Shown here one piece after another: positions 27,790-49,239 of a stretch of DNA of 64,000 bases. The stretch is from positions 1 to 64,000 of the forward strand of contig NZ_JABCPZ010000020.1 of assembly GCF_013283785.1 (NCBI RefSeq), written 5' to 3'. The DNA is from Nonomuraea antri. GTDB lineage: Bacteria; Actinomycetota; Actinomycetes; Streptosporangiales; Streptosporangiaceae. Both the position numbers and the translations under genes were made by a program. The first letter of the stretch is position 1; each line of letters opens with the position of its first letter. A model generated the notes under the pieces. It was not told the DNA's origin. It did no database searches and was given only the letters and a program-made list of their open reading frames with translations.

Positions 27790-28167
27790 ATGGCGCGATG
27801 GGGTAGCAGATCACTCGCAGCACTGGCCGCCGGTCTGGTGCTCACGACGGCCCTCCCGGCGGCGGCACGGGCCAACAACTTCTACGACAGCCACTCCGAC
27901 GGCTACGCCCAGGTAGCGGCTGACCGATCGTGGGTCAAGGTGTGCGACGGCCGAGACGACAACCTCGTCTACAAGATCCACTGGATGAACGACAACTTCG
28001 CGGATCCCAGGTACTGGGAGGTCAGGGCGCCTCAGGGTGGCTGCAGGACCGACAGCTCAGCGCTGGGGGACGTCAAGATGTTCAGGCTCTACTGGGGCCA
28101 CCTGGAGCCTGACCGCCGAGTCGTCTGGGATGGGCGCAACCCCGCGAAGTACCCCGCCGGCAGGTGA
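27790..28167 (+). CDS. Small secreted protein, copy 2 of a paralogous pair
   Basis: A 125-residue protein with a signal peptide (LAALAAGLVLTTALPAAARA). The mature part has VKVCDGRDDN and EVRAPQGGC, matching the spacing and residues of the minus-strand protein at 6864-7304. The two conserved cysteines probably pair. Function unknown. ATG 27790 has GGAGAT upstream. Confidence 0.7.
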   Translation: MARWGSRSLAALAAGLVLTTALPAAARANNFYDSHSDGYAQVAADRSWVKVCDGRDDNLVYKIHWMNDNFADPRYWEVRAPQGGCRTDSSALGDVKMFRLYWGHLEPDRRVVWDGRNPAKYPAGR

Positions 28168-28215: not shown

Positions 28216-29010
28216 TTACGCCGATGAGTCTCCTCCGCTGCCATTTACACCTGGAAAGGTCATGTGGTGGCGCGCCCTTGACCTCATCACCGAGTTGCGT
28301 AGCCTAGTGGCCATCAATCCCCTGATCATGCCGGGTGCCATGAGAGCGATCAGCACCGCCGATGCCCACGGCAACTCACCGCCTTGACCTGCCCACTGCA
28401 CGGGGTGGGCCGCGACCCGGTGTCCGAACCGTTGAAGCAGGTGCAGCAGTTCGACGTCGAAGGCCCAGGATCGCCAGGAGGCGCGGGCGAGGAGCAGATC
28501 CGCTGCTCGGCGGTTCATGACCTTGAGCGGGGTCTGCGTGTCGCGGACCGGCAGCCGGGGGAACAGCACACGGGTCAGGGCGATGAATCCGTTCGTCTTG
28601 AGCTTCCTGGTACGACTCCAGCCCTGCTGCGCGCGTTCGGCGACGAGGCAGTCGGCTTCTCCGGCGATGATGCGCCTGGTCATGGCGCGGAGATCGTCAG
28701 GCGAGGCTTCCCAACCATGATCGGCGTCGAGGTAGGCGAGGACCTTGCCGGTGGCCTGGGCCAAGCCGTGTCGTACGGCCGTGGCCTTGTCGCAGGGAAG
28801 GTCGAGCAGCCTCACCCGTGAATCGACCGCCAGGGCGTACCTGCGGACGTCGGCGGCGGTCGGACCGCGAACGACGGTGTCGGTCACGACGAGGATCTCG
28901 ATGTCGGGCCAAGCTGCCCGGACGAGGTCGAGCGTGGCGTTCATGCCCAAGTGGTGGCCGCGCGCGGGGATGACGACGGACAGTTCAGGCACGTAGACGG
29001 GTGACGGCAT
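28216..29010 (-). CDS. GT2 glycosyltransferase, dolichyl-phosphate-glucosyltransferase-like
   Basis: A 264-residue GT-A fold enzyme: LSVVIPARGHH at the start, YLDADHGWEASPDDL with the metal-binding D-x-D, and VRDTQTPLKVMNRRAADLL with WAFDVELLHLLQRFGHRV, the acceptor and catalytic blocks of dolichyl-phosphate-glucose/mannose synthase relatives. It has no clear C-terminal membrane anchor. It is the last gene of the minus-strand operon and overlaps the RtcB-like gene by 26 bp. The donor is probably a nucleotide sugar, perhaps the one made by the nucleotidyltransferase at 32970. Confidence 0.8.
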   Translation of the reverse strand: MPSPVYVPELSVVIPARGHHLGMNATLDLVRAAWPDIEILVVTDTVVRGPTAADVRRYALAVDSRVRLLDLPCDKATAVRHGLAQATGKVLAYLDADHGWEASPDDLRAMTRRIIAGEADCLVAERAQQGWSRTRKLKTNGFIALTRVLFPRLPVRDTQTPLKVMNRRAADLLLARASWRSWAFDVELLHLLQRFGHRVAAHPVQWAGQGGELPWASAVLIALMAPGMIRGLMATRLRNSVMRSRARHHMTFPGVNGSGGDSSA

Positions 29011-30262
29011 CGACGTGGGTCTCCTTGTAGTTGGCCCAAGGCAGGAGCCGGACGACAGGGGCTGCGTGGCCGGTCGTTTCGAGCGAGGAACGGACGAGTT
29101 CGAGGTTCGTCACGGCATCGCGCCAGGTGCCTGGATCCAGAGCGGTGTTGGCCTGGAGCTGCTGCGGATCCGGCAGTTGCGGCAGCTCGACGGAGGCGTG
29201 CGCGTGAGCCCACATGGGGACCCCGTGGCTCAGTAGACCGCAATGCCGGGGGCCGGGGCGGAACAGATAGGAGTGTGTCCTGCCGCCGCCGACCACCAAG
29301 GTCGGTCGGCCGGTGAGAGTTTGGGCGCCGCGGCCGGATCGGAGGCGTCCCGGCTGATGTTCGTACCAGCCGTGTGCGTTGTGGCGGATGAGACGCGGTT
29401 CGGCGAGGCGGGCCGGCCGGTGCCGAGTGAGCACGTCCAAAATGATTTCGGCCGCGAGATGGCGGGTGGCGGAGCTGTAGAGCGTGGCGGTGGCCGCCAT
29501 AAGGAGGAACGCCTGCGACAGGGCGTGGCTCAGAGGCAGGCCGAAGAGATGATGCTCGCCGATGAGGCGCGGTTCGACCAGGCCGAGTGCGAGGCAGTGT
29601 TCGGCGATAAGGCCGAACAACTGGTCGTAGGCCCAGGCCCGAATGGCTGGGGCACCGGTGTGGACCACGAGCACCAGCTCCCCGGGGATGAGGTCGGTGT
29701 GCGCGCCGGGCAGGGGCTCGGCGGTGTAGAGGGCGATGAAGTGACCGGCGACGGACCCGGCGTGTTCGGCGAGGGTTTGCCGCTTGGTGGCGTCGAACAT
29801 CGCCGGGTCGCCGATGAGATGGCCTGGTTGTTCGGCGCCTGGGCCCGGAGCGTAGCGGGTGGGAGAGGGAAGGGCGTTCAAGCCCGAAGTCAGGATGGCT
29901 TCCATGTCGACCGGCGGTGGCTTGCGAGAGCGCGAAGTGACGGCGACGGCTGAGATCAGGTCGGCGAACGCTCGGCGTGCTTGTGCGCGGGTCCATCGTG
30001 CGGGGTCGATGCCTGTGGCGATCACGGCGAAGCCGCAGGCGATGTCGGTGACTGCCGTGGGGTAGACCATGGGGTCGTCTCCGGAGACGGTGAGAACGAC
30101 TCCGGAGGGGATGCCGAGTGTCTTGGGCGCCACGTCGGCGAAGACCTCGACCGATTCGACCGTCGGCAGCGCCGAGACCCTGTCGATGACGGGGCGCAGC
30201 GGCGAGGCTTGGAAGCGCTGGGTGAGGCAGGCGTTCATGTGAACGCGTACCGGTGCGTTCAT
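28985..30262 (-). CDS. RtcB-family ligase, divergent
   Basis: A 425-residue protein. All main RtcB positions can be matched: D73 and C76 in TDIACGF (family DxGCG), H174 in GSVAGHFIAL (family GGGNHF, Asn lost), H201 in VVHTGAP (family HSGSR), H294-N295 in IRHNAHGWYEH (family HN), and H346 in LSHGVP, the position of the guanylylated His. RtcB joins 3'-phosphate or cyclic phosphate RNA ends to 5'-OH ends using GTP and Mn. Here it is embedded in a peptide/sugar operon, with ATGA coupling to the PEP enzyme. It may have a non-RNA phosphate-activating role; RNA repair is the alternative. Confidence 0.8.
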   Translation of the reverse strand: MNAPVRVHMNACLTQRFQASPLRPVIDRVSALPTVESVEVFADVAPKTLGIPSGVVLTVSGDDPMVYPTAVTDIACGFAVIATGIDPARWTRAQARRAFADLISAVAVTSRSRKPPPVDMEAILTSGLNALPSPTRYAPGPGAEQPGHLIGDPAMFDATKRQTLAEHAGSVAGHFIALYTAEPLPGAHTDLIPGELVLVVHTGAPAIRAWAYDQLFGLIAEHCLALGLVEPRLIGEHHLFGLPLSHALSQAFLLMAATATLYSSATRHLAAEIILDVLTRHRPARLAEPRLIRHNAHGWYEHQPGRLRSGRGAQTLTGRPTLVVGGGRTHSYLFRPGPRHCGLLSHGVPMWAHAHASVELPQLPDPQQLQANTALDPGTWRDAVTNLELVRSSLETTGHAAPVVRLLPWANYKETHVDAVTRLRA

Positions 30263-31779
30263 GGGAGCTCCAAAGGAAGGACGGTGCGGTGACCGTCTGG
30301 GGCGCCGGCCCAGAGCTGTCCGTGCGTCTCGGCATCGTCGATCAGCCAGCGAAGGCGAGCACCGCAGGGTAGTTCGACCGAAGGTTCCTGTACATCGGTT
30401 CCTTCGGGAAACAGCAGTCCTGCCACGTCCGGCGGTCGATCGACGAAGGCTGCGGTTTCGTGGTCGACCGCGAGGACGACCGGCCCTTGTCTGGGTCCGG
30501 CGACCACTCGCAGGCCAAGGGGAAGAGGCTGAGGCTCGGAGGCACGGAGGGGCACATCGTTCAGGCGCACGACCCCGCGGTCGCCGTCGACGGTGATGCG
30601 CTCTCCGTCCCTGATGATGTCTGGGGCGGCCAGGACGCCCGTGACGCAGGGCTTGCCGAGTTCGCGAGCCACGATGGCGGTGTGACACAGGACGCCCGCG
30701 TCAGTGGACACGATGCCGGCGGCCTCGACGAGGGCGGGCACGAGTTCCGGGCGGGCGGAACCGCACACCAGCACACCGTTGTCCGGCATCCGTGGCGAGT
30801 CGGAGGCCGGAGTGATGACAGCCGCCGGGCCGGTGGCCAAGCCGCTCGAAGCAGCTTCGCCGACGAGTTCGTCGCCGCTCTTATCGGCGCCCTTTCGCCT
30901 GTTGAATCCGGTGGAGGTGGCGGGACGCGCCTGCACCAGCCACAGAACGCCGTCGGTGTCCTGGACCCACTCGATGTCGAGAGCATCGCTGCCCATCACG
31001 GCCTGCGCCCACCAGCCAAGGCTGCGTACGCCGTGCACCGCGGCGTGGTCGAGGGCCGGCCGCCGGCCGAGCTCGGTGGACGGCCGGACGTACGCCAGGT
31101 TTCCGTCACTGAAGACCAGCTTGGAGCGTGCGTTGTGCGGCCATTCGAGCCATTCGCCAGGCGGCAGATCGCGCTCGTGCCGTCTGGTAGGGATCACGGC
31201 CACATGCTTGACGCTGGGCTGGTCGTTACGCCGGCCGTCGGCTTCCCCGTAGACATCCGGTGCTACTTCACCGCCCAGCAGCAAGGCCGCCAGCCCAAGC
31301 GTCGCCTCGATCCGCCATCCCGTTCCCCACTTGGTGAACAGCACTCCTGAGGCGGCCGCGCGGAGGGCAGGCTGGATCAGCACCGCCGTCCCGTCCGGAG
31401 CGGGAACATCGCGTGCTCGTGCATACGCGGTCACGAGATCACTGAAGACGGAGCCGTGCACGTCGGCCACCGCACGAGTGATGTCGTCCGGTGTGGCGGA
31501 GACGAAGCACGAGGTGAACAGCCCTGCAAAACTCGCCTCCGCACCGTCCTCCCCAGGTGTGGACGAACGAACGACGAGCCCGCTCCGACCCTGAGACGCC
31601 GCCCACAACGCGATCTGATCAGCGAGGCCGTGATCCTCGCCTCGGGCCAGCCGAGCGACGCGTTGCGCCGGAACCACGATCCCGTCCGGAACGGGCACGC
31701 CGGCACTCATGAGCCTGGCCAGATTCACGGCCTTGCCGCCGTGCTGGGCGGGATCCGCGGCCTGTGCCAGAGGGATCAT
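30259..31779 (-). CDS. PEP-synthase/PPDK-like enzyme (ATP-binding plus phosphohistidine domain)
   Basis: A 506-residue protein. The N-terminal part has GGKAVNLARLMSAGVPVPDG and LVVRSSTPGEDG, the PPDK/PEP-synthase ATP-grasp signature. The middle has DIEWVQDTDGVLWLVQARP, the end of that domain. Near residue 360 the swivelling domain has GVLCHTAIVARELGKP with the phospho-accepting His. There is no C-terminal PEP-binding barrel. This two-domain layout recalls rifampin phosphotransferase, which moves the beta-phosphate of ATP through His to a small molecule. Overlaps of 4 bp on both sides tie it to the RtcB-like gene and to the 322-residue protein upstream. Confidence 0.8.
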   Translation of the reverse strand: MIPLAQAADPAQHGGKAVNLARLMSAGVPVPDGIVVPAQRVARLARGEDHGLADQIALWAASQGRSGLVVRSSTPGEDGAEASFAGLFTSCFVSATPDDITRAVADVHGSVFSDLVTAYARARDVPAPDGTAVLIQPALRAAASGVLFTKWGTGWRIEATLGLAALLLGGEVAPDVYGEADGRRNDQPSVKHVAVIPTRRHERDLPPGEWLEWPHNARSKLVFSDGNLAYVRPSTELGRRPALDHAAVHGVRSLGWWAQAVMGSDALDIEWVQDTDGVLWLVQARPATSTGFNRRKGADKSGDELVGEAASSGLATGPAAVITPASDSPRMPDNGVLVCGSARPELVPALVEAAGIVSTDAGVLCHTAIVARELGKPCVTGVLAAPDIIRDGERITVDGDRGVVRLNDVPLRASEPQPLPLGLRVVAGPRQGPVVLAVDHETAAFVDRPPDVAGLLFPEGTDVQEPSVELPCGARLRWLIDDAETHGQLWAGAPDGHRTVLPLELP

Positions 31780-32744
31780 GCGGGCATCTCCTGAGCGAGT
31801 TCGAGGAAGTCGGCGAGGGTCAGTTCGTAGGGGTCCCGGCCGTGCTGCTCGGCGAGCTTGCGCAGAGTACGCAGGGTCTGCTGCTGGGCGACCTTGCGGA
31901 ACTCCTCCTCGTCAGCCGCGAGGCGGCAGATCACCGCCAGAGCCTGGGTCCGCTGGTAGGCGGCGCCGTCCGAGCTGCTGGCCAGCAGAGCTGCCGCGTA
32001 GAAGTCGGATCGCCGCTGGCTGGCGCGTTCGTGCAGGTGGCGCAGCTTCGTCAGCGCCTGTTGGGTTTCAGCATTGGAGAACTGCTCGATCGTGCGGGCG
32101 ACGACAGCGGGATCTTCCCAAGGCGACGCGGTCAGCCCTTGAGCTTGGAGGAACCCCTTCTGATCGGCGAAGGCAGATGTGTCACCGGTGCTCGCGGTTC
32201 GCAGGAGCCAGGCGTACACGTCGACCACGTGAGCGGGTTCTGATGGCACCATGAGAGCCAGAAGGCAGGTACGAGCAGCATGTTCATCAGCGAAGACCTG
32301 AGTCAGATGCGCCTCGGCCGCTTCGCGTGGCAGTAGCCAGTTCAGCGTGTGCAGCGCCATCAGGTCGTCGAGCGCTACAGTCAGCATCGCCAGCTGTGCC
32401 GCCGCTCCTCTACGGTTCAGGCGAGACTCCAGCTTCGAGATCCGGCTCCAGAATTTCGATCTCGCCGTCTCGAATGCGCTTCTGACGGCCAGAGCGCCAG
32501 GAAGGTCCAGCAGCCGGTGCTGTACCGCGGCGCAGAACGCGTCATATTCGGTGGCGGGGACGTCGACGATACCTGGCCGACGGATGCGGCCCAGAGGCGC
32601 GGGATCGTCCAGCAGCACGCGCGGTGCGATATGCAGTCCTCGCCCATACAGGTCGTATTCGACCACCGCGCCGCGGCCTGACACGCCATCGGCGAGGGCG
32701 ACCTCGTAGTCGCAGATGACCAGGTCACGCCAGCGGATTTCCAT
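31776..32744 (-). CDS. Probable substrate-domain partner of the PEP-synthase-like enzyme
   Basis: A 322-residue, mostly helical protein from ATG 32744 with GGGAGGAAACC upstream. HTLNWLLPREAAEAHL, LMVPSEPAHVVD and a long C-terminal helical tail resemble the helical middle domain that lies between the ATP-binding and His domains in rifampin-phosphotransferase-like enzymes. Here it is a separate coupled gene, so it may be a detached substrate-binding subunit. No catalytic motif of its own is visible. This assignment is inference from fold-like patterns and operon position. Confidence 0.5.
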   Translation of the reverse strand: MEIRWRDLVICDYEVALADGVSGRGAVVEYDLYGRGLHIAPRVLLDDPAPLGRIRRPGIVDVPATEYDAFCAAVQHRLLDLPGALAVRSAFETARSKFWSRISKLESRLNRRGAAAQLAMLTVALDDLMALHTLNWLLPREAAEAHLTQVFADEHAARTCLLALMVPSEPAHVVDVYAWLLRTASTGDTSAFADQKGFLQAQGLTASPWEDPAVVARTIEQFSNAETQQALTKLRHLHERASQRRSDFYAAALLASSSDGAAYQRTQALAVICRLAADEEEFRKVAQQQTLRTLRKLAEQHGRDPYELTLADFLELAQEMPA

Positions 32745-32806
32745 TGGTTTCCTCCCATCCGGTACCGGAGGTGGCCGGGTGAGGGCGGCCACCTCCGGGA
32801 AGCGGG

Positions 32807-32950
32807 TCAGCCGGCCGAGGCGGCGATGGTCGTCGGCTGGGGCGCGGTGGCCGGGATGGTCGGCGTGCTGTCGGGCCGGGTCTTGGTCTGGCCCGCCAGC
32901 TTGGCGACGAGCTGGGCGAGCTTGGAATCGGCGAGTGTCTCTTCCGACAT
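32807..32950 (-). CDS. 47-residue candidate precursor peptide
   Basis: A short gene with AAGGAGATCAC immediately before ATG 32950, a very good ribosome site. Residues 1-20 form an acidic then amphipathic leader-like helix (ETLADSKLAQLVAKLAG); residues 22-47 are Thr/Pro/Ser/Ala-rich with two charged residues early and a C-terminal Gly. No signal peptide, Cys or membrane helix. It lies between the nucleotidyltransferase and the PEP-enzyme genes, as RiPP precursors do. Hydroxyl-rich residues make phosphorylation or glycosylation of the tail plausible. Modification is not shown by sequence. Confidence 0.65.
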   Translation of the reverse strand: MSEETLADSKLAQLVAKLAGQTKTRPDSTPTIPATAPQPTTIAASAG

Positions 32951-32969
32951 GTGATCTCCTTTCGGGAGG

Positions 32970-33689
32970 TCACCAGTTGAGCTCGGTGACCTCCACGGAT
33001 GCCTCGTTGACGTCCTTGACGGTGTCCACGCCCCGCCAATAGGCGTCGATCTTGTAAGCGGCGAGCTTCTTGTCCACAGCCAGCTGCGGGAACGTGGTGT
33101 CCTCGTGATCACCCTTGACCGGCAGCAGCGGTATCACTTCGGGCTGGAGGACGTAGATACCGCCGTTGATCCAGTACGGGAGCCGCGGCGACTGCACGAA
33201 CCCGACGATCCTGTCGGAGTCGTCGAGTGTCGCGATGCCCCAGGATGTGCGGTACTGGGCAAGGGCGATCGTGGCCATGGCCTCGGCGGTGACGTGCCGA
33301 TCCAGCATCTGCCGGAGGGGAAACCTGGTCAGGACGTCACCGTTGAGCGCCAGCCACGGCTCATCGGGATGGGGCAGGCGGTCCGCGGCAAAACGGAGCG
33401 CCCCGCCGCGGCCGAGCGGTTCGGACTCGACCGCCACCTCGATTCTCAGGGGGTAGGTGTGGCCGGCGAGATGGGCGTCCAGAACGTCGGCCCGGTAGCC
33501 GCACGAGACGACCACGTTCTCGGCGCCCTGATCGGCCAGCCATTCCAGTTGCCAGTTCAGGATCGGCTTGCCCGCCACCGGCACCATGGCCTTGGGCCGA
33601 TCGTCCGTGTACGGCCTCAACCTCGTGGCCTGCCCGCCCGCCAGGATGACGGCCTGCCGTACCTGGGTGTTTCCGCTGGTGATTGCCAT
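32970..33689 (-). CDS. Sugar-phosphate nucleotidyltransferase
   Basis: A 239-residue GT-A-like nucleotidyltransferase. AVILAGGQATRLRPYTDDRPK is the pyrophosphorylase signature, MVPVAGKPILNWQLEWL follows, and LALNGDVLTRF carries the metal-binding Asp. WINGGIYVLQPEV completes the core. It activates a sugar-1-phosphate with an NTP, giving a donor that the GT2 at 28216 could use. It is the first enzyme gene of the peptide operon, 19 bp before the peptide gene. Confidence 0.85.
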   Translation of the reverse strand: MAITSGNTQVRQAVILAGGQATRLRPYTDDRPKAMVPVAGKPILNWQLEWLADQGAENVVVSCGYRADVLDAHLAGHTYPLRIEVAVESEPLGRGGALRFAADRLPHPDEPWLALNGDVLTRFPLRQMLDRHVTAEAMATIALAQYRTSWGIATLDDSDRIVGFVQSPRLPYWINGGIYVLQPEVIPLLPVKGDHEDTTFPQLAVDKKLAAYKIDAYWRGVDTVKDVNEASVEVTELNW

Positions 33690-34368: not shown

Positions 34369-35736
34369 ATGGCGAGACATGACGCCACCTGCGCCCGCGA
34401 GCTTCACCGAAGACGACGGCACCTGCCTGCGCAGACGGTCGCCGAGGAGATCACCCGTTGCTGTGGCCACAACCGGCTGAAGGCGCACCGACTGGCTCGG
34501 GGCTGGACCGTCGAGAGCGCGGTCGAGGCGTTCCACCAGATGTGCGTGAAGGACGAGTTGCCCGCACGGGGACTTACCGTCCGGTCCTGGTTGGAATGGG
34601 AGGCAGACCATCCACCGAGCCCTGCCTACCAGGATCTGCTCTGCCGGTTGTTCCTGACCGGGCCCGTGCAACTCGGCTTCGCCGTCTCCTACGAGGCACC
34701 CGCGTCGCCGCCGCGTCCAGGGCACGTCGACGACGTGGTGGCAGAGGCCGCCAGGTCGTCCTTCGCGCACGCTGCCGCCGCGCAGCTCAGCGACGTGACA
34801 CCGATGACGGTCGATCACATCGACGCGCAGATACGGCGGCTGGCGGTCGAGTACGTCTACGAGGAGCCTCTTCCCCTCTTCCGCCGTATGGTGACGCTTC
34901 GGGATCAGGTTCACGACGCGCTCGCCGGTCGCCACCATCCTGAGCAGGCGACCGCGCTGCTCCTGTCTCTCGGGCAGTTGTGCGGGTTGCTGTCCAACGC
35001 GAGTCTCGACCTGGGCAACCCGCCCGCCGCTGTGACTCAGGCCAGATCCGCGTGGACGTACGCGTCGATCATCGACCATCATGGCCTTCGGGCGTGGGTA
35101 CGGGGACTGCAGGCGATGATCGCCTACTGGGCCGGTGCACATGAGGTGGCTGCTGATCTGGCTCGGGACGGACAGCGGTACGCGCCGGGACCGACAGCCT
35201 TGTCCCGGCTGGCCAGTATCGAAGCGCTCACCCGAGCTGTGCTCGATGACCCGCGAGGAACCGGTCTCGCGATCCAGCGGGCCAGGGACGCCCTGGCCGC
35301 GGGCACCCCGCAGGATGAGATGCACGACGACATCGGCGGCGAGTTCGGCTTCCCCGCGGCCAAGTTCTCCTACCTGGCCGCCGCCACTTATGTCCATCTG
35401 GGTGACCACGCCCGCGCCATCGAACAGGCGCGGCTCGCCATCGACCTGTATAAGTCGGGCTCGGCGACCTCACGGGCCTATGGCAACGAGGCGCTGGCAC
35501 ACGTCAACCTCGCGACGGGCTATCTCATGGCCGGAGAGATCGACGACGCGGCCACCGCGATCAGCGGTGTGCTGACGATGTCGACGAACCGCCGGATCGA
35601 CGGGCTCACCCGCCGCCTCTCCCAGATTCGCCTCCAGTTGCTGGCCCAACCCCGGTTCAAGGGGTCACGGCGGGCTGGAGAACTCGCCGAACGGATCGAA
35701 GACTTCCGCTCCTCTCTTCCGGTGCTGGAGCCGTAA
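34369..35736 (+). CDS. XRE-TPR family transcriptional regulator 1
   Basis: A 455-residue protein from ATG 34369. The N-terminus has the degenerate helix-turn-helix of actinomycete XRE-like regulators (ITRCCGHNRLKAHRLARGW, then VESAVEAFHQMC and VRSWLEWEAD). The rest is TPR-like helices (AAVTQARSAWTYASIIDHHG, HARAIEQARLAIDLYKSG). Its closest relative in the window is the broken regulator at 36696-38124. It abuts the phosphotransferase gene with no gap, so the two are co-expressed. Confidence 0.75.
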   Translation: MARHDATCARELHRRRRHLPAQTVAEEITRCCGHNRLKAHRLARGWTVESAVEAFHQMCVKDELPARGLTVRSWLEWEADHPPSPAYQDLLCRLFLTGPVQLGFAVSYEAPASPPRPGHVDDVVAEAARSSFAHAAAAQLSDVTPMTVDHIDAQIRRLAVEYVYEEPLPLFRRMVTLRDQVHDALAGRHHPEQATALLLSLGQLCGLLSNASLDLGNPPAAVTQARSAWTYASIIDHHGLRAWVRGLQAMIAYWAGAHEVAADLARDGQRYAPGPTALSRLASIEALTRAVLDDPRGTGLAIQRARDALAAGTPQDEMHDDIGGEFGFPAAKFSYLAAATYVHLGDHARAIEQARLAIDLYKSGSATSRAYGNEALAHVNLATGYLMAGEIDDAATAISGVLTMSTNRRIDGLTRRLSQIRLQLLAQPRFKGSRRAGELAERIEDFRSSLPVLEP

Positions 35737-36695: not shown

Positions 36696-38124
36696 ATGAG
36701 CCGACACGAGGTCCGGCGGAAGGCCGCCATTCACGACGCGATGTGCGCGGAGCGAATCCGGCTGCGGCGCCTCGTCCAGGTCAGCGAGTCGTCCGCGGCG
36801 GTTCTGCACGCGATAGCGGCGGACATCCGGACTTGCTGCGGGCATCATCCACTCAAATGCCACCGCCTCGCGTATGGCTGGAGCAGCGCGGAGAAGGCCG
36901 TCCGCGCGATGCACGACATGTGCCGGGACAAGGAACTGGGGGCTCACCAAGCGCTCCTGGCTTGATTGGGAGAGCGGCCGCCGGCCCGGAGCTGACTACC
37001 TGGACCTGCTCTGCCGCCTGTTCGAAACCGGACCGGTGGAGCTCGGCTTCGGCACTGACTACACGCCTGTCGATGTCACCGTCCTGTCTCATAGCGTGGA
37101 ACCCGAAGGGACCATCACGCGGGAGTGGGAACTGATCATGAGCGCCGCGAACGAGTCCAGCGACCACGCCGCGCGAGCCGAAGCCGCGAGCGTCGGGCCG
37201 TACGCCATGGAACAGATCGCCGAGGACATCGTGCGGCTGGCACGGTCATACGTGCATGCGCCGCCGCTGCCGCTGTTCGACGAGCTGACCCGAGTACGTG
37301 ACAGGGCCTACTGGATGCTCGACCAGACCAGTCGCCCTGACCAGCGACGCGATCTCTATCTCCTCGCAGGACAGGCCTGCGGACTGCTGGCCAGCGCCAG
37401 TTTCGACCTCGGATATCCCGCCGCCGCCTCCGAGCAAGCACGAGCGGCGCGCGCCTACGGCGATGTGACCGGGCACGCCGAACTGCGAGCCTGGGCCGAC
37501 GGGATGCTCGCCTGCATCGAGTTCTGGGCCGGCCACCCCAGCCGGGCGCTCTCGCTCGTGGAACGAGGCCTGGACGACGCACCCACCGGCACCCCGAGGA
37601 TTCGACTACTTTCCATCGGTGCTCGGGCGGCGGCCTTGCAAGGTGACGCAGCGTATGTGAACAAGGCCCTCCAGACTGCGCGCCAGGTCGATGGTGGAGC
37701 TCATGAGATGCATGACGAGATCGGCGGCGAGTTCGGGTTCGACGAGGCACGGCACGCGTTCTGCAGCGGCAGTGCGTACGTGACGCTGGGCAGGTCATCC
37801 GAGGCCATCGATGAATGCAGGCGTGCGCTTGAGCTGTACCGGTCTGTTCCAGTGCAGCAGCGGTGGTATGCGGCGGAAGCGAGCGCGTCAGTCGATCTTT
37901 CCATCGCTTATCTGCTCGCCGGGGATACTTCCGGGGCGGCCGAAGCGTTGTCTCCTGTCTTCGGCCTCCCCATGGAGAAGCGGGTCGAGGGGCTCGTTAA
38001 GAGGATCACTCAGGTCCGTGCGGTGCTGGCGACGGTCGGCGGTCATGAAGCCAGTGAGCTGGCTGAGCGGATCGAGCACTTTTCGGCCGATTCCATCACT
38101 CGGATTCTGCCTGCGGACTCTTAA
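36696..38124 (+). pseudogene. XRE-TPR regulator 2, frameshifted
   Basis: ATG 36696 gives MSRHEVRRKAAIHDAM through AVRAMHDMCRDKELG, after which the frame closes at 36965. The match to regulator 1 continues in the next frame (LTKRSWLDWESGRRPG, YLDLLCRLFETGPVELGFG) to 38124. The break is a run of five G at about 36938-36943; removing one G restores the alignment. The reconstructed protein would be about 475 residues with C-terminal TPR repeats. Its stop codon lies inside the tRNA-Lys fragment. The homopolymer position makes a sequencing error likely. Confidence 0.75.
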
Positions 38125-40362: not shown

Positions 40363-41901
40363 ATGGATGATCCTCGGCGATGGTGGCAATCGGTGTATCC
40401 GGCCGACTGGGGAGTGTTCGGCCTTGCTGACGACCTCGCTCGGGATCGATATACGGCGCTGCTCGCGGCGTTGGAGGAATTGTCTACGAGAGGGCCTATG
40501 TCCACTCTGGAGGAGATCTCCGAACGGATGCGCGGGGTCGGTTATCACGACCGGTTGCCGGAGGACGATCTGCGCGATGTCCTCGACCGACTCGCCGAGC
40601 GCGGTATGGCGGAGCCGTTCCGTGACTATGCGGCGCCGGTTCGGGACTACCGCGGTCTGATCGTCCGACAGGAGGCGTGGGCGCTCACGCGCAAGGGAAG
40701 GGGTATCGTCGCCGCGGTACGTGCGGCGGTCGTTGACGCACGGCGTGCGTTGCAACTGCCCAGCCGGCTGCTCGACAGCGTCGAGATGACGATCAGGGCC
40801 ATCCTCGGCCATCTCATCGACGACACCGGGATCCTTCCGATGGATCTTGACGACGTGCGGACGCGCATCGATGAGTTGCAGCGCGTAACCGCAGACTTTT
40901 ACACGGCACTCGCCCGGATGGTGCAGTCGGATGTCACCGATGATGAGTTCTTCGGGGAGAACCGGGATCGCGTCATCGAGGCGCTGCGCCAGTTCCCGCG
41001 GGAGTACGGTAGGGGGCTCGCCCGGGTCGAGGCAGCACTTGGAGATCTCCGAGAGGCGGGTCACCGGCGCGTGGCCGAGGCCGCGGTCCGGCACGCGGGG
41101 TTGATCGACGTCCGGGACCAGCAGCACTGGGTCGAGGAGCGGGTGCGGCGTCTGTCCGACCTGGAGGCGTGGTTCGCCGAGGACGGGACGGTTCACCGGT
41201 TGATCGCCTCCGCCACCGGTGCCGTCTATACGTTGCTCGTGGCGATCGACCGGAGGTATTCGGCCCGCCGCCGGGGCACAGATCTCGGTGCGGATTTCCA
41301 TGCGCTCGCGCAGAGCCTGTTCCGGCAACCGACCGATGCGGAGGCCCGTACCGTCCGTGCGGCGGCGTTCGGAGACTGGCCCGCATGGCACGCTACCGTC
41401 GGCGGAGCCGAGGACGTCGCTCACGGGACGGTGGCGGCGTCAGGGGAGTCCCGCCACGTCATCGAGGTGACGCTGCGCGAGCATGAGAGGCAGGGACGGG
41501 CGAGCGGACGTCCGAGAAAAGTCCCGGACGCCTCCGCGGACCGTGCCTCGGCACTGGCCGCCGCAGCCGCGGAGGCAGAGCGGTGGCGCCGTCTTGCTGA
41601 CCGTCTGACCACCCCGGGGGAGGTCGGGCTCGATCATTTCGCGGGTCTGGATGCTGAGGCCGCCGGGGTTCTGTTCCGGGCGATCGAGATCGCGTTGGCT
41701 CGCATCGATCCAGGCACCGGGCTCGGTACCGCCCACGCCGACGGAGCGAACGTGGTCGTCGAGGTGCGGCTCGGTGCGGACCACGTCTCCGTAACGGTTG
41801 GATTCGACGAAGGCAGGCTGACCGTCCGAGATCTGAGAGTCCGCGTGTTCCCGGCAGGAGCGCGTCCAGCCACGGCCGATGAAGATTGGCGGATCGCATG
41901 A
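40363..41901 (+). CDS. jetA: Wadjet JetA (DUF2397, kleisin-like)
   Basis: A 512-residue protein matching the DUF2397/TIGR02677 pattern: a winged-helix-like N-terminus (MSTLEEISERMRGVGYHD, LRDVLDRLAERGM), a long helical middle, and a C-terminal region with an alpha/beta tail. In the SMC-like Wadjet complex this subunit plays the kleisin role, linking the JetC heads. It is the first gene of a four-gene operon with ATGA overlaps. The set restricts plasmids by loop extrusion and DNA cleavage in characterised relatives. Confidence 0.85.
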   Translation: MDDPRRWWQSVYPADWGVFGLADDLARDRYTALLAALEELSTRGPMSTLEEISERMRGVGYHDRLPEDDLRDVLDRLAERGMAEPFRDYAAPVRDYRGLIVRQEAWALTRKGRGIVAAVRAAVVDARRALQLPSRLLDSVEMTIRAILGHLIDDTGILPMDLDDVRTRIDELQRVTADFYTALARMVQSDVTDDEFFGENRDRVIEALRQFPREYGRGLARVEAALGDLREAGHRRVAEAAVRHAGLIDVRDQQHWVEERVRRLSDLEAWFAEDGTVHRLIASATGAVYTLLVAIDRRYSARRRGTDLGADFHALAQSLFRQPTDAEARTVRAAAFGDWPAWHATVGGAEDVAHGTVAASGESRHVIEVTLREHERQGRASGRPRKVPDASADRASALAAAAAEAERWRRLADRLTTPGEVGLDHFAGLDAEAAGVLFRAIEIALARIDPGTGLGTAHADGANVVVEVRLGADHVSVTVGFDEGRLTVRDLRVRVFPAGARPATADEDWRIA

Positions 41902-43154
41902 GCGGGGCCCTGCTCGACCCGGATCTGAGCGAGGCCGCCCGTGCGCTGATCGCGACCGGGCGCTTGCGCGCGGAGATAGATCCAGAGACATACCGCCAGG
42001 CTGTGAAGGGGCGACGGGAGCTCGCCGCGTTCTTCCACGGTGAACTTGGCTGGACGCTCGAGGTTATCGAGGTCGCACAGCTGGTCCGGCTGCACAAACG
42101 CCGGATGGACGTCCCAGGCGACCGGGGCCCAGTGCTCGTTCGAGCTCAGGGCGAGGGGCGGCTGGCTCCGCGGGAGGTGCTGGTCTGCGAGGCGCTGATC
42201 TGCGAGCAGCTCTGGCGGCGCCCCAAGATGAGCCTTCGGGAGCTCCTTCAAGCGGTGGCTCAGGTGTGTGCTGCGGAATCCATGGCGGGGACGCTTCCGG
42301 AGTTCCAGGTTGTCGGGCAGGACGGCCCAGCCAAACGACGTGCGAGGCAGAACCGCCAGACTTTGGCGGACGCGTTGAGGCTTCTCGTCGATGAAGGCAC
42401 GATCACCGTCGACGCGGATTTGGACCGGGTCGTCTCCGATGAAGAGGCGGACCTGGTGGTCAGCTCGTCGAGAGAACGATTGGCCGCGAAGTTCTCTTCG
42501 CTCTCGCCCGTCCTGCTCAGGCTCGGAGATCTCTCCGCCGACCGCCACGCTGCCGTTCTTTCCGCGGGTTCCCTTCCGGGTGAGGAAGGGAACGGCTTGG
42601 AGCTTCCGGATCTCGAAAACCGACGTCTGCGCCTAGTGCGCCGACTCGTCGACGATCCGGCTGCGGATCCATCGGATGACCCGACGAGCGGCTCCCCCTA
42701 CCTGCACACGTTGAGCGGTAGAGAACGCGCGCTGAACGTCCTGTACTCGCTTGGGTTCGCCGTCTCCGTTCGACGGGACTGGTGGGAAGTCACGGATCCG
42801 ACCGGAGTCGGGACGGCCATCGGATTCCCCGGTGGCAGGAAGACCGAGCGGCAGGCCGCCCTCGCGCTCCTCGCTGAACTACCGAGGCGCGAGCGGCCGG
42901 AAGAGATCTTGCCCCTCGACGAGATCGTTCAGATCTTCGCGCAGGCTCGTGAGTCGGTCCCCAGGTGGGCGGCGGCATATTCCGCGAGAGTCGCCGTGCT
43001 CGCCAGGGCCGCTGCGAGCGAGCTCGTCGCCGTCGGGCTGCTGCGCGCGGACTCCGAACGGCCGGACTCATGGCATCCGATGCCGGGAATCCACCTGTGG
43101 CGCGTCCGCGTCCGCCCCTCGAAACCAGTCGAGACCTCGGAGACCACGACATGA
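41898..43154 (+). CDS. jetB: Wadjet JetB (DUF2398, KITE-like)
   Basis: A 418-residue protein of the DUF2398/TIGR02678 family: LHKRRMDVPGDRGP, then LVCEALICEQLWRRPKMSL and LADALRLLVDEGTITVD, a tandem winged-helix arrangement as in KITE subunits. It would bind the kleisin and modulate the JetC ATPase. It overlaps jetA and jetC by 4 bp each. Confidence 0.85.
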   Translation: MSGALLDPDLSEAARALIATGRLRAEIDPETYRQAVKGRRELAAFFHGELGWTLEVIEVAQLVRLHKRRMDVPGDRGPVLVRAQGEGRLAPREVLVCEALICEQLWRRPKMSLRELLQAVAQVCAAESMAGTLPEFQVVGQDGPAKRRARQNRQTLADALRLLVDEGTITVDADLDRVVSDEEADLVVSSSRERLAAKFSSLSPVLLRLGDLSADRHAAVLSAGSLPGEEGNGLELPDLENRRLRLVRRLVDDPAADPSDDPTSGSPYLHTLSGRERALNVLYSLGFAVSVRRDWWEVTDPTGVGTAIGFPGGRKTERQAALALLAELPRRERPEEILPLDEIVQIFAQARESVPRWAAAYSARVAVLARAAASELVAVGLLRADSERPDSWHPMPGIHLWRVRVRPSKPVETSETTT

Positions 43155-46100
43155 CGATCTCGACCCTCCGCGGAGCTGACGACTTGCGGCTTGGGGAACC
43201 CGACACCGACGGCAGATGGCAGCCGACCAGAGCTGGCGTCGTCAACTCCTGGGCGTGGGCCGAAGAGGTCTTCTACTTCGCCGACGGCTGGCTGGCGCTG
43301 GCTGGGCCCAACGGGTCGGGTAAATCATTGACGGCTTCGATGCTCGTCACCGTGCTGCTCGACGCCGAGGTGTCTCAGACCGCGCTCTCGGTGTCCGGCA
43401 AAGCAAGTGGGACGCTGACCAGCCGGCACACCGACAGAAACGAACGTGAGGATCGGACCGGAGCCTGGTGGTTGGAGTACGGTCGGCATGATCCCGCCAC
43501 GGGTGAGACGGAGTTCCTCACCACCGGTGTCTGGCTCAGATCTACCGGCAGCGAGCTGCAACGCGCGTTCTTTCTCGCTCCGGGCAGGGTCGGGCACGAC
43601 CTCCTCCTGCAGCGCGACCGCGAGCCGGTGCGGATCGTGGATCTTGCTGAACAGCTGGCTGAGATCGCCGGAGAACTGTTCGTCTCCTCATCCGCACTAC
43701 GCTCGGCCTCGACCGGGATTCTGGCCTCAGTCGGCGAGGAGCGGCACTTCAAGTCGGCTATCAGGACGCGACTGTTCGCGCCGCTGGATGAGGTGCAGTT
43801 CGACGCTCTGATCGGGGTGCTGCGTAGCCTGCGCAGCGTCCGCACAGCCGAGGCGATCTCACCGAATCGGATGCGTGAGGTTCTTACCGAGGCACTGCCC
43901 GCCCTGGATCCCGACCAGCTCAAGTTGATCGCCGAGGCGATGGAGCGCATCGCCGAGCTGGAGAACCAGCTCGAACGGGCGCGCACCGAAGCGGGTCTGC
44001 TGAACGACGCGGACCGACGTTACCGGACCTATCTGGGCGCGGTCGCGCAGCTCCAGGCGGCCGAACTGGTCAGAGCGGACAACGATCACGGCGATCTGAC
44101 CAGGGAGGCACGTACCGCGACCGAGCGGAGAGACGCTGCCGTCGAAGAGAAGAGAGCTGCGGCGAGGGAGCGGGACCAGGCGGCAGAGAACGAGGCCGCG
44201 TTGATGGGCGAGATCGCGGCGGCGGACTCAGCGTTACGAGACCATGCCGGCGCAGAGCTTCCGCTACTCGAACAGCGTGCCGCTGAGCTGGCCGACACCG
44301 CTCGGACGGCCGAGGAGAACGCGGCAGAGGCCCAGGGCAGAGCGGAAGTGACCGCGCGGGAGGCTGAGGAATCGGCCGACGTCCTCCAGGAAGCCCAGAG
44401 CCACCTGGAACAACTGGTTCAGGGTCTCCGCAGTGAGGCAACTGTCCTGGGCGCGGAAGCGGCGCTGGACCGCATGATCGCTGTGCTCGGGGAACTGACT
44501 CACGCTGAACGGACTGTCGTCGTCGAAGCCCCGGACATGGACGAGCTCGTCAGTACTCCGCAAGCCTGGACAGAGGCCCGTACGGGGCAGATCGGGCGGG
44601 TTCGTGCGGCGCTGCGCGCGAACGAAGAGGCTCAGCACCGCGTTCGGGGGGCGGCTGATGACAGACGGAGGGCGGAGGACTCGGAGGACGCTGCCAGGGA
44701 ATCCGCCGACGTGGCAGGCGGAGATCGCCTGTCAGCCGAAGAAGGGCTCCTGCTGGCTCTTGAGGAATGGGACGCGGCGAATCGCCATCTTGGACGTCCA
44801 GTTGCGGGGTTCGAGTTCGGCCGATCGGATGATGGAGAAGGGCGTCTGGCTCTCGGGGAACTGCGTGCCTGGCTGATGGAAGCGGCCGAGACGGCACGCG
44901 GCCGGATCGATCTCGCAGGACGAGAGCGGCAAGCCAGTGCCGATGAGGCGGTCGCAGCCGCAGCTCGTGCAGAGGCCGGGCGGGCACGGACACGTCACGC
45001 CGACGCGGCGAGCCGGTGGGAAACGGCTCGCTCGGCGCTGGCCGAGACGGAGGACGAAGCCGCCGATGAGGCAGCGGCCGACGCGGAGCGTGAGGCCCAG
45101 GCCATCGCGGAACATGAAGCAGAGTTCCGTCTGGCAGCGGAAGAGGTTGCGGAGGCCGAACTGAACCGGGCTGACGGACTGTCCGCCGTAGTGCAAGCGG
45201 GAGGGGAGTGGATCGCACGGACGGCGCGATGGCGGAATGCCCTTCGGTGGCTGAACGGAGACGACATCCCGATCCCAGAGCTTCCGTCTGCGAACGACGT
45301 ACAGCTGGATCCGGCGGCGACAAAGCTCAGCGTCGTTCAGGCCCATGCCAGAGCTGACAGGGCGCTGCATGAAAAGCTGGCGCGGGCCCGGGAGACAGTC
45401 AATGGGATCGGCGATGAGATCGACGTCCTGGAAGCTGAGCTCGCCGAAGCCCGTCAGACACCGCCGCTGCCTCCAGCGCCGACCTGGCGTCGTCCACGCC
45501 CGAGTGACGGCGTTCCGCTCTGGGCGCTCGTCGACTTCGCACCGGACCTCGCCCAAGGGGAGGCGGACCGGATCGAGGGCGCGCTTCTGGTCGCCGGCTT
45601 GCTCGACGCTCTCGTCATGCCTTCAGGAAGGCTTGTAGCGGGTGAGCTGGTCCTTACTCCAGGAGGACCGATTGATGGGCGGACGCTGGCCGACGTGCTC
45701 ACACCGGACGATGGAAGCCCGCTTCCGGCACCGCTGGTCGCCGGATTGCTTCGCGCGATTCCCGTCGGTCGTGCGGAGTCAGGAACTCTGACCCACGGTG
45801 TCCTGACCGCGGCATGTCCTGAGGGATACCGGTCCGCCTTCATCGGCCGTTCCGCCCGAGAGCGGGCGCGGCGTGAGCGCGTCGCGGCGCTCGAGAGTTG
45901 GCTCTCGACACTGGAGGGCAGGCTGGGAGAGGCGCGCGCACAGGTTCGCGAACGGCAGAGGGATATCTCAGAGGCGGAGGCCGAGGCGGATTCCTTCCCG
46001 GACTGGGATGCCCTTGCGGCGGCGCGGCAACGGCTGGCGGAGTTGTCCGACCTCGTGTCAGCGGCTCAGCGGTCGGCCGCGCACCGCAGGGCCGACGCCG

Positions 46101-48109
46101 ATCTGGTTCTGGAGAAGAGCCGTGCCGACCTGGCCGCCGCCGCTTTGCGCCGGGAGGCCAGGATCGCCGCGGAGCGACAGGCGACTTTCCTCCTGGAGGA
46201 ACAGGAACAGCAAACGGACGAGCAGGCCGAGGCCACCGCACAGGCGGCTGAGGAGAGTGCCGTGACCGCCGCCGAGAGCACACGGCTCCGGACGATCGCG
46301 GCAGAGGAACAAGCGGAGGCAGAGGCCGAGCATGCCAGGTTTCCTGGCGACCGTGTCACCGAAGCGGAAAATGCGCAGGCCGCTGAGGATCGGGCCGAGG
46401 AGCGTCTGATCGAAGCGCGGCGGCTCACCGTCGAGGCGATCGAGCGGCACCGCAAGAGCTCTGAGCATCTTCAGCAATCCCTCAAAGCCCTCAACACGGA
46501 GGCGAAGCTGCCGGACGGCTCGCTCCTGCCGACCTCGGGAGCCGCGCTCGACCATCATGGTGAGGAGAACAACCGACTGGTGCGATCCATCGACGGCTGC
46601 GCGGCCGCCGCCAGGCGGTGCTCCGACCTCCTCGACCGAGCACGCAGAGATCTGCGCACCGCCGCCGGCCAGGCGCAGGTGGCAGACCGGTTGGCCACTG
46701 CAGCGACCAACACCCGTCAAGAAGCGGTGACCGCACGCGCCACGGTCGACAAGATCAGAGCTCTGCACGGTGCCGAGTACCTGCATCTCATCGAGGTTAA
46801 AGAGACCCTCACCGGGCGACTGGCGGGCCTCAAAGAGAAGATCAGGACGTTGGACCTGCGGAAACAGGAAGCCGGGGAGCGGGCAGCCGCCGAACAATCG
46901 ACGCTCAACGGCATCGCACCCCGGCGCGAGTCCTCTGAGATCCACAGGGAGGCATGCTTCCGCGCGTTCGCCCGTCTCGCCGAGGAACGTCTGGCATCCC
47001 TCCCCGACGACCTCCCTTCCGACTCCGCTGGCCGGCCCGCCCATCTCACGGCGGGCCTTGTCTGGGCACGCCGCGTCCTCTCTGATCAGCCACCGAGTAC
47101 CGAGCGGATGAACACGCTCATCGCGAACCGCAATCGGGCGCATAGCGGGCTGGAGAACAGCGTGCGGACCGCGAGCACCGCTCTCGCGCGTTTCAACCGC
47201 CAGGTCACCCTCGCCACCATCGAGGGCACAGACTGGCGCCGCGCCGTGGTGGCCGACCCCGACGCCAGCCGGGGCGAGGACCTCGGGCAGGCGCTCCTAG
47301 CGTTGCGGGCGAGCATCGATCAGCTCGAAGGCGACCTGCGCGAGGATGTCAAACGAACGATGAAGACGAGCCTGTTCACCAAGCTCAGGAGGGATATTCT
47401 CGAACGTAAACAGGCGGCGCACGAGCTGGTCCGGCAGGTCCGGGGCACCCTGAAAAGGGTGCGCACAGGAGTCGCCGACGTTGGTGTCCAGGTCGCCTGG
47501 GATGTCAAGAAGGACGACGAGGACTCCCAGCGCATGGTCGACCTCATCACGAGCCCGCCATCCGATGAGACCTTCGACCAGATGTACTCCGTGCTGCGCC
47601 AGCGCATGGATGAGACCGTCGGCGAGCCATGGCTCGACCGGGTGGCGCACACCTTCGACTACCGGAGCTGGCACGAGTGGGAGATCACTGTCACCCACTC
47701 CTCATTCGGCGACGGCAGCTCGGAGATCTTCCGAAAGGTGACCGCACGCTCCAATCCCCTTGAGTCGCTGTCGACCGGTGAGCGGCGGCTGGCCACGATG
47801 CTGCCGTTGCTGGCGGCGGCTTGGTCCATGTACTCCGCTGAGGAATTCAAGGGCCCGCGCCTGCTGTCCATCGACGAGATCGACGCCGCCTTCGACGAAC
47901 CGAATCTGAGGCAGATCCTCGGGCTTCTGCGCTCATGGGAGTTCGACGTCCTCGCCACCACGCCGTCGATCACGCCGATGATGAAGCGCGAAGCCGGTCG
48001 GGCCATGGTGCACCAGGTCGTGGCCGCCGGCCGCCGGCGAGTGACGATTCCCTGGCACTGGTCCGGGGAGGGTGAACCCCGGATCGTCACCCCCGAGCCT
48101 GCTCAGTGA
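43151..48109 (+). CDS. jetC: Wadjet JetC SMC-like ATPase
   Basis: A 1,652-residue SMC/SbcC-like protein of the TIGR02680 group. Walker A is AGPNGSGKSL near residue 52; two long Ala/Glu/Arg-rich coiled-coil arms run from about 260 to 600 and 920 to 1,300 around a hinge-like region (LWALVDFAPDLAQGEADRI). The C-terminal head has the ABC signature SLSTGERRLATMLPLL and Walker B LLSIDEIDAAFDE. It extrudes DNA loops in characterised Wadjet complexes. The frame is intact over nearly 5 kb, in contrast with the left part of the window. Confidence 0.9.
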   Translation: MTISTLRGADDLRLGEPDTDGRWQPTRAGVVNSWAWAEEVFYFADGWLALAGPNGSGKSLTASMLVTVLLDAEVSQTALSVSGKASGTLTSRHTDRNEREDRTGAWWLEYGRHDPATGETEFLTTGVWLRSTGSELQRAFFLAPGRVGHDLLLQRDREPVRIVDLAEQLAEIAGELFVSSSALRSASTGILASVGEERHFKSAIRTRLFAPLDEVQFDALIGVLRSLRSVRTAEAISPNRMREVLTEALPALDPDQLKLIAEAMERIAELENQLERARTEAGLLNDADRRYRTYLGAVAQLQAAELVRADNDHGDLTREARTATERRDAAVEEKRAAARERDQAAENEAALMGEIAAADSALRDHAGAELPLLEQRAAELADTARTAEENAAEAQGRAEVTAREAEESADVLQEAQSHLEQLVQGLRSEATVLGAEAALDRMIAVLGELTHAERTVVVEAPDMDELVSTPQAWTEARTGQIGRVRAALRANEEAQHRVRGAADDRRRAEDSEDAARESADVAGGDRLSAEEGLLLALEEWDAANRHLGRPVAGFEFGRSDDGEGRLALGELRAWLMEAAETARGRIDLAGRERQASADEAVAAAARAEAGRARTRHADAASRWETARSALAETEDEAADEAAADAEREAQAIAEHEAEFRLAAEEVAEAELNRADGLSAVVQAGGEWIARTARWRNALRWLNGDDIPIPELPSANDVQLDPAATKLSVVQAHARADRALHEKLARARETVNGIGDEIDVLEAELAEARQTPPLPPAPTWRRPRPSDGVPLWALVDFAPDLAQGEADRIEGALLVAGLLDALVMPSGRLVAGELVLTPGGPIDGRTLADVLTPDDGSPLPAPLVAGLLRAIPVGRAESGTLTHGVLTAACPEGYRSAFIGRSARERARRERVAALESWLSTLEGRLGEARAQVRERQRDISEAEAEADSFPDWDALAAARQRLAELSDLVSAAQRSAAHRRADADLVLEKSRADLAAAALRREARIAAERQATFLLEEQEQQTDEQAEATAQAAEESAVTAAESTRLRTIAAEEQAEAEAEHARFPGDRVTEAENAQAAEDRAEERLIEARRLTVEAIERHRKSSEHLQQSLKALNTEAKLPDGSLLPTSGAALDHHGEENNRLVRSIDGCAAAARRCSDLLDRARRDLRTAAGQAQVADRLATAATNTRQEAVTARATVDKIRALHGAEYLHLIEVKETLTGRLAGLKEKIRTLDLRKQEAGERAAAEQSTLNGIAPRRESSEIHREACFRAFARLAEERLASLPDDLPSDSAGRPAHLTAGLVWARRVLSDQPPSTERMNTLIANRNRAHSGLENSVRTASTALARFNRQVTLATIEGTDWRRAVVADPDASRGEDLGQALLALRASIDQLEGDLREDVKRTMKTSLFTKLRRDILERKQAAHELVRQVRGTLKRVRTGVADVGVQVAWDVKKDDEDSQRMVDLITSPPSDETFDQMYSVLRQRMDETVGEPWLDRVAHTFDYRSWHEWEITVTHSSFGDGSSEIFRKVTARSNPLESLSTGERRLATMLPLLAAAWSMYSAEEFKGPRLLSIDEIDAAFDEPNLRQILGLLRSWEFDVLATTPSITPMMKREAGRAMVHQVVAAGRRRVTIPWHWSGEGEPRIVTPEPAQ

Positions 48110-49239
48110 CCGCCGGATCACACATGTTCGTCGACGATCCCGTGTTCCTGCCCTTGTGGAAGGCCGTCCATGACCGCCTCTGCGCCGGTGAGGCCCCAGA
48201 GAAGATCGCGGCACTGCGGATTCGCGGTCTCACCGCGCCCGCCATCGCCGAACTGCGAACCTGCCTCGACACCACGGCCCGGCGACGAAGAGGACGCTCC
48301 GCCGTTGTGGTCGATGCGACCTCGGTCGTCATCCCATTTCGGGAGCTCCTGACCGCCTTGGAGATCGCCACCGAACAGGTGGCTGTTCTCGCCGAGAGAG
48401 CCACTGGTATCCCCGTGATCGACAAAGCGGCTCTCCGCCAGGGCGCCGCGGCTCTCCGCAAAGATCTCTGGGCCTACGCCGCCGAGCGGCTACCACGGCT
48501 CCCCAAGCTCACCACCCGGATGCGCATGGCCGGAGTCTCAAGCGACGAGGACGCCATCCGTCACCTGATCGACTCGCTCGCCCTCGTTATCGCGCTCCTG
48601 CCCTGCCGTCCGCCCGTCAGCTTGCCGAAGCTTGCACACGACGCCACAGGCGACCCCCACTACTTCGACCTGAACACTCTCAACGGCGCACGTCTGGTGG
48701 CAGCGGTCGCCGAGCTCGTCGGAGTCTCGGAGCCCAGGCGTCCAGATCATGTCCGGGCGTTGCTAGCGAGCAGGGGGATCACCGCCGACAGGCTCTCAGC
48801 AACGGTCCTGCTCCACAATGTCCGCGTCGTCGGCGATGGCCCGATCGACCGTCGATTGCGTGATGCGGCTGCCCCGGTGGCACTGACGCTCCTCGACCTC
48901 GTCGAGTACCCACCGGCCTTCTCCACCGCGGCACCCCTCACCGTCGTGGAAAACCCTTCCGTCCTCGAAGCAGCCATGGTCGCAGGAGCAACCATCCCTT
49001 TGGCGTGCACGAGCGGACACTTCCGAGGAGTCGATCACGCTCTCCTCCAACTCGCCCACGACCAGGGAATCCACCTTCGCTACGCCGGAGACCTCGATCC
49101 CGATGGTCGACTCGCCGCCGCCCAGGCGGCAGAACTCTACGGCGCCGAACTGATCGCGATGGAGGGCCTTCCCTCCGAGGCCATCTATCAGGAACATGAC
49201 GCCATCCTCCGACGCCTTTTCTCAACTGAGGATGTCTGA
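48106..49239 (+). CDS. jetD: Wadjet JetD (DUF2399/DUF3323, TOPRIM nuclease)
   Basis: A 377-residue protein from GTG 48106, overlapping jetC by 4 bp. The C-terminal TOPRIM-type core is visible: LTVVENPSVLEAA (catalytic Glu) and LRYAGDLDPDGRLAA (D-x-D). The N-terminal DUF3323-like half has arrayed helices (PEKIAALRIRGLTAP, HLIDSLALVIALLP). JetD cleaves the plasmid DNA after JetABC recognition. The complete four-gene order supports an active system. Confidence 0.85.
   Translation: MTAGSHMFVDDPVFLPLWKAVHDRLCAGEAPEKIAALRIRGLTAPAIAELRTCLDTTARRRRGRSAVVVDATSVVIPFRELLTALEIATEQVAVLAERATGIPVIDKAALRQGAAALRKDLWAYAAERLPRLPKLTTRMRMAGVSSDEDAIRHLIDSLALVIALLPCRPPVSLPKLAHDATGDPHYFDLNTLNGARLVAAVAELVGVSEPRRPDHVRALLASRGITADRLSATVLLHNVRVVGDGPIDRRLRDAAAPVALTLLDLVEYPPAFSTAAPLTVVENPSVLEAAMVAGATIPLACTSGHFRGVDHALLQLAHDQGIHLRYAGDLDPDGRLAAAQAAELYGAELIAMEGLPSEAIYQEHDAILRRLFSTEDV

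Follow-up and report, generated by a model that had tools for sequence, protein, structure and literature searches.

A rare six-gene cassette in Nonomuraea antri that places an RtcB-like protein beside a PEP-synthase-like enzyme, sugar genes and a short conserved peptide

Introduction

RtcB is regarded as an RNA ligase; this locus raises the question of what an RtcB-like gene does in an operon that also encodes a short peptide, a PEP-synthase-like enzyme and two sugar enzymes. The operon lies in what we call the window, the whole stretch of 64,000 nucleotides that was analysed. A preliminary description had listed six tightly packed minus-strand genes, in the order nucleotidyltransferase, 47-residue peptide, helical protein, PEP-synthase-like enzyme, RtcB and GT2 glycosyltransferase, with three overlaps of 4 bp or more, and had supposed that together they could phosphorylate, nucleotidylate and glycosylate a peptide or a metabolite. 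The layout was described correctly: all six genes are present on the minus strand in that order, and the overlaps measure 4, 4 and 26 bp.

Results

A single query in which the helical and RtcB-like proteins were joined was searched against 341 genomes of the family, and the six genes occur in identical order in four of them: the window's own genome (G000), G581, G586 and Actinomadura harenae NEAU-Ht49 (G605). The helical protein had six carriers in this search, the window's own genome included, and in four of these the RtcB-like gene adjoins it. A first search among 98 relatives returned the own genome as sole carrier, which was likewise the only strong match among 394 genomes of the class; 20 other class genomes gave weak matches (E 9e-4 to 0.08), and three of 23 such matches were inspected and judged to be chance. 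No cassette was found in plasmids. The genes do travel together, as the preliminary description had anticipated, but its phrase "across actinomycetes" was too wide.

The surroundings of the cassette are of three kinds in the four carriers. Copies in G581 and G586 are flanked by genes that by eye resemble hydrogenase-maturation genes, and those of A. harenae and the window have other neighbours. Among the genes called at 20-42 kb of the window, only the six match the loci of other carriers (blastp, E up to 1e-4); the gene caller missed the GT2 genes of G581 and G586, which tblastn found there at 72-73% identity. The conserved unit therefore consists of these six genes. The neighbouring XRE, HATPase and APH genes, previously taken for control and accessory genes, fall outside it, none having a blastp match at the same threshold in the other carriers' loci. 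Across the four carriers, the best-matching relative of the window's HATPase is found at another site of its own genome (48%). Such HATPase, HTH and phosphotransferase-like genes are common in actinomycetes, and near the A. harenae cassette lie a HATPase gene, an HTH gene (both by Pfam) and a phosphotransferase-like gene (by eye), with no blastp match to the HATPase, XRE and APH genes of the window. The APH gene stands between a pair of paralogous genes, 34369-35736 and 37036-38124 (40% identical over 325 aa), for which Pfam returned nothing and TPR, respectively, so that the name XRE is a judgement by eye. Elsewhere in the window, 27790-28167 and 6864-7274 encode two small proteins that resemble each other (38% over 91 aa) and look secreted, and four genes at 40363-49239 match the PADLOC Wadjet models JetA, JetB, JetC and JetD.

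Pairwise dN/dS of the cassette genes lies between 0.13 and 0.65, with no gene pair above 0.65, values that are rough in the many pairs whose synonymous distances are near or above 1. The peptide genes of G581 and G586 differ by 2 synonymous and 0 amino-acid changes (dN/dS 0), and the other peptide pairs give 0.41-0.65. Comparison of the coding sequences thus indicates purifying selection on all six genes. Rare and patchy as it is, the six-gene cassette is one conserved unit under selection, and a self-contained biosynthetic unit is the best explanation for it.

The second gene of the operon (32807..32950) encodes the 47-aa peptide, and each of the four carriers has a similar ORF, of 44-47 residues, at this position. 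In the window it has a clear ribosome site and is the sole ORF of 20-120 aa on its strand between the flanking genes; it matches other carriers' peptides at E 1e-10 and 1e-6, with no family match in Pfam, NCBIfam or PHROGs. Across the four carriers its front part (ADSKLA..VA.LA in the window, D-S/N-K-L/M-A overall) is better conserved than its tail, a stretch of 24-27 aa in which Thr, Ser, Pro and Ala abound (6-9 Thr/Ser, 4-5 Pro). Every carrier has Thr24 within a TRP motif and Thr31 within a PT motif; the C-terminus varies by lineage (SAG, LNG, SAS), and no Cys occurs in any of the four peptides. The cassette thus shows a trait of RiPP pathways, a short conserved peptide gene beside enzyme genes with a front part more conserved than the tail, and we infer that this front part may act as a recognition leader.

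Downstream of the peptide, the helical protein (31776..32744; 322 aa) starts at an ATG preceded by GGAGG, and an alternative, longer frame opens with a GTG at 32792. It belongs to no recognised family: Pfam, NCBIfam, PADLOC and PHROGs gave nothing below 0.001, and a further search gave weak chance matches only. Its low-confidence structure model (mean pLDDT 44.4) is mostly helical. Its gene adjoins that of the PEP-synthase-like enzyme (30259..31779) in nine of nine carriers. The latter consists of an ATP-binding domain (PF01326, PPDK_N, 1.4e-28), a phosphohistidine swivel domain (PF00391, PEP-utilizers, 2.6e-19) and a C-terminal tail of about 100 aa; the swivel histidine, His366, is encoded at 30682-30684, and the ATP-site and His residues are invariant in five relatives. 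By profile comparison the ATP domain matches rifamycin phosphotransferases, and an ATP domain joined to a swivel domain with its catalytic His is what small-molecule dikinases of the RPH/HpeHI type possess. A plain PEP synthase (pyruvate, water dikinase) was considered and rejected, the Pfam scan having found these two domains and no C-terminal PEP/pyruvate-binding barrel. In the search for a homologous helical substrate-binding domain, the helical protein gave no profile match to eight RPH-like proteins, its structure model being too poor for a comparison of folds.

The same pair of genes occurs in five more genomes, two among 338 of the family (G638, G484) and three among the 394 of the class (G173, G303, G337), in all of which it ends one conserved second cluster (L059:4094-15214; also L041, L042, L057 and L058) that is to our knowledge uncharacterised. 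In one copy, a scan of ten genes gave PTPS (QueD-like), a radical SAM protein (QueE-like by eye), a phosphoribosyltransferase, GT4, PIG-L, WbqC, a weak thymidylate kinase, a further radical SAM protein, DegT and an RNase-T-like exonuclease; a NUDIX-like gene and the remaining copies were judged by eye. No comparable peptide ORF precedes the helical gene in any of the five, chance frames of ~20 residues occurring in two. Because the pair recurs there without a peptide, this kinase does not necessarily have a peptide as its substrate, and the two proteins look like a two-component kinase that serves as a module in two settings. A different two-domain PEP-synthase-like protein, which shares 34% identity with that of the cassette, is encoded in the window's own genome and two others of the genus (L104:7031-8317, L105:7545-8753, L106:6380-7627), divergently from genes for 130 and 210 aa, and is possibly another split dikinase.

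The RtcB-like protein (28985..30262) is assigned to RtcB by Pfam just above the cut-off (PF01139, 2.6e-7; 30.6 bits against 27) and by profile and fold searches, the alignment behind the fold model containing ordinary RtcBs. In the excerpted text of PMC10630183, RtcB (P. horikoshii numbering) has the metal ligands Asp95, Cys98, His203, His234 and His329 and the nucleophile His404. The cassette protein keeps the ligands as Asp73, Cys76, His174, His201 and His294, the last pairing with either of two neighbouring histidines depending on the alignment, and the nucleophile as His346. Eight ordinary RtcBs share 111 invariant columns, 24 of which are kept by all four cassette proteins and 87 are not. 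All six ligand and nucleophile positions fall within those 24; the odds under random retention are 6e-5, or 3e-4 for five positions if the ambiguous His294 is left out. The RtcB motifs GNHF, RKGA, PGS and HGAGR are changed in the cassette family, to SGHF/TGHF/AGHF, GRGxQ, VGG/IGA/TGG-type and HGxPMW, and since these motifs surround the nucleotide in ordinary RtcB, use of GTP by the RtcB-like protein is doubtful. An ordinary RtcB gene is present elsewhere in all four carriers, so the cassette protein is a specialised paralogue.

In G586 the intervening stop and start have been lost, and a single reading frame of 1021 aa runs from the PEP-synthase-like into the RtcB-like sequence across a Pro-rich linker. 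Relative to G581, the junction carries a 10-base gap and a 2-base gap, and an 84-base insertion lies further upstream; these differences do not look like what a single homopolymer error gives. This natural fusion links phosphorylation to the RtcB-like step, and on its evidence the two steps appear firmly coupled.

Sugar genes form the two ends of the operon. The first (32970..33689) encodes a sugar-1-phosphate nucleotidyltransferase resembling NDP-sugar synthases (PF00483, NTP_transferase, 4.3e-30), whose best NCBIfam model, mannose-1-phosphate guanylyltransferase, scores 141.5 bits against a cut-off of 440. It is 68-81% identical to its counterparts in the three other cassettes and 52-61% identical to relatives in 39 of 196 other class genomes (E up to 1e-45). 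Ten of 40 such loci were fetched, and no other cassette gene was found near the relatives (tblastn E up to 1e-3, up to 17 kb). The four cassette nucleotidyltransferases group apart with modest support (78/95), 80% of bootstrap trees showing one change. In A. harenae a broken version of this nucleotidyltransferase, its middle missing, lies at L127:8523-8997 (G605:C254), directly adjoining a TOMM/cyanobactin-like RiPP cluster (SagD-, SagB- and PatA-like).

The last gene (28216..29010) encodes the GT2 glycosyltransferase (PF00535, 1e-13), which has relatives at E up to 1e-15 in seven of 147 other class genomes, at 32-34% identity, and so looks cassette-specific. It weakly resembles GtrB and polyprenyl-phosphate sugar transferases (PpgS, 25 bits against a cut-off of 370; the GtrB-like phrog_841, 5e-7). 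Enzymes of that kind attach sugar to phosphate, and this faint likeness would be compatible, if weakly, with a phosphate acceptor.

Discussion

Judged by their families, the cassette proteins probably move phosphate from ATP through a phosphohistidine to an acceptor, act on that phosphate with a metal enzyme, and add an NDP-sugar and a glycosyl transfer. The PEP-synthase-like protein would take phosphate from ATP onto His366, and the helical protein, the likely acceptor-binding component, would present a hydroxyl to which it is handed, as in HpeHI and PpsAB. The RtcB-like metalloenzyme could then join or rearrange the phosphoester at its metal site with His346, while the nucleotidyltransferase would make an NDP-sugar and the GT2 transfer the sugar to a hydroxyl or to the phosphate. 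The likeliest acceptor would be the peptide (44-47 aa), modified on its Thr/Pro-rich tail, the conserved front part serving as recognition leader. We tentatively prefer, at somewhat short of an even chance, such a phospho- or phosphoglyco-peptide RiPP-like pathway, in which the acceptor and the exact reaction of the RtcB-like protein are guesses. The earlier proposal of phosphorylation, nucleotidylation and glycosylation is supported in part, by the joint travel of the genes and by the G586 fusion, which ties phosphorylation to the RtcB-like step; the changed nucleotide motifs of the RtcB-like protein make its use of GTP doubtful.

Several features nevertheless weigh against this pathway. The kinase pair stands in five genomes with no comparable peptide ORF, the peptide's C-terminus is lineage-variable, and among the six proteins Pfam recognised neither a protease or transporter nor a leader-binding domain; the helical protein has no recognisable link to a dikinase substrate domain, as far as its poor model allows, and the altered RtcB motifs cast doubt on GTP use. 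The second cluster, where the pair keeps company with phosphoribosyltransferase, PIG-L, WbqC, kinase-like, radical SAM and aminotransferase genes, suits a small-molecule pathway in which the helical and PEP-synthase-like proteins would phosphorylate a sugar or nucleoside, for example at C1, the nucleotidyltransferase would activate it, the GT2 would transfer it, and the RtcB-like protein would form or move a phosphoester, leaving the peptide as scaffold, chaperone or regulator. Split dikinases characterised in the excerpted text of PMC12167813 do use small molecules, and kinase, nucleotidyltransferase and GT2 make a plain sugar-activation series. We regard this pathway as a serious possibility, but the peptide is second in the operon in four of four carriers, with its conserved front and Thr/Ser/Pro tail, and the unit has no separate gene for making an acceptor; on balance a peptide acceptor is favoured.

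That a short peptide is kept with all the tailoring genes might also mean that it acts as a carrier, with a metabolite built up on it and later set free. Carrier peptides are extended at a fixed terminus, whereas here the C-terminus differs in all three lineages, and Pfam recognised no ligase or releasing peptidase in the six proteins, which makes a carrier improbable. The RtcB fold with its metal and nucleophile residues could instead point to an RNA ligase in an RNA repair or tagging system. Such an assignment seems most improbable, given the ordinary RtcB in every carrier and the loss of 87 of the 111 invariant residues. RNA-repair genes, among which the preliminary description allowed that RtcB-like genes of this clade might mainly be found, were not recognised by eye near the cassettes (RtcA and archease included), part of the neighbours having been family-scanned; the window contains no tRNA, and PADLOC gave no match for the five cassette proteins scanned, the peptide lying outside that scan. 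Chance neighbourhood or a misread GC-rich stretch is scarcely credible in view of the same order in four genomes and in independent surroundings, purifying selection on every gene, and the fusion.

The interest of the locus lies in a conserved RtcB paralogue in which the metal centre and nucleophile persist, most of the other invariant residues are gone, and fusion to a phosphate-transfer enzyme has occurred in one carrier. If confirmed, RtcB chemistry would here be seen in biosynthesis for the first time, to judge from the literature searched. Searches tying RtcB to RiPPs, to precursor peptides and gene clusters or to Actinomadura natural products found no paper; those pairing RtcB with biosynthetic gene clusters, judged by titles and abstract openings, returned nothing on such a cassette; and those for PEP-synthase-like enzymes with RiPPs found none. 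With limited coverage of subscription journals and preprints, all these results are weak evidence of absence. An RtcB-fold metalloenzyme and a kinase of the ATP-phosphohistidine type, in one carrier fused to it, might even link a ribosomally made peptide through a phosphodiester, for instance as sugar-phosphate-Thr; that would be a new class of peptide-modifying pathway, with RtcB chemistry outside RNA, which we consider unlikely. Since the cassette has only six genes, it is testable in one expression experiment.

Comparison with known systems places each part of the cassette near, and apart from, a familiar relative. The nucleotidyltransferase resembles free-standing NDP-sugar synthases of actinomycetes at 52-61% identity, but the ten loci fetched for these held no other cassette gene and the cassette copies form a group apart with modest support. 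Glycocin transferases such as SunS are GT2 enzymes, and the cassette shares with glycocins a short peptide adjoining a glycosyltransferase (excerpted text of PMC12457901). It differs in that its peptide is free of Cys and no C39 peptidase or transporter gene accompanies it; a glycocin identity was rejected on the absence of a Cys-containing core and of a C39 peptidase/transporter domain in the six proteins. Unlike glycocins, the cassette brings along an NDP-sugar enzyme, a dikinase and an RtcB-like enzyme. With the RtcB RNA ligase, as the excerpt of PMC10630183 presents it, the RtcB-like protein shares the fold, the Asp, Cys and three His ligands and the His nucleophile, and it differs in keeping 24 of 111 invariant residues, in its changed HGAGR and other motifs, and in a context that is not RNA repair. 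The kinase pair shares an ATP-binding domain and a His swivel domain with rifampin phosphotransferase (excerpt of PMC4844700) and with HpeHI, CreHI and PpsAB, in which, as in the cassette, the enzyme is split over two genes; HpeHI phosphorylates phenolics via its swivel histidine (excerpt of PMC12167813). In the known split dikinases the ATP domain stands alone and the swivel domain is fused to the substrate domain, whereas in the cassette one protein, which has its own tail, unites the ATP and swivel domains, and a separate protein, not recognisably related, is the putative substrate part.
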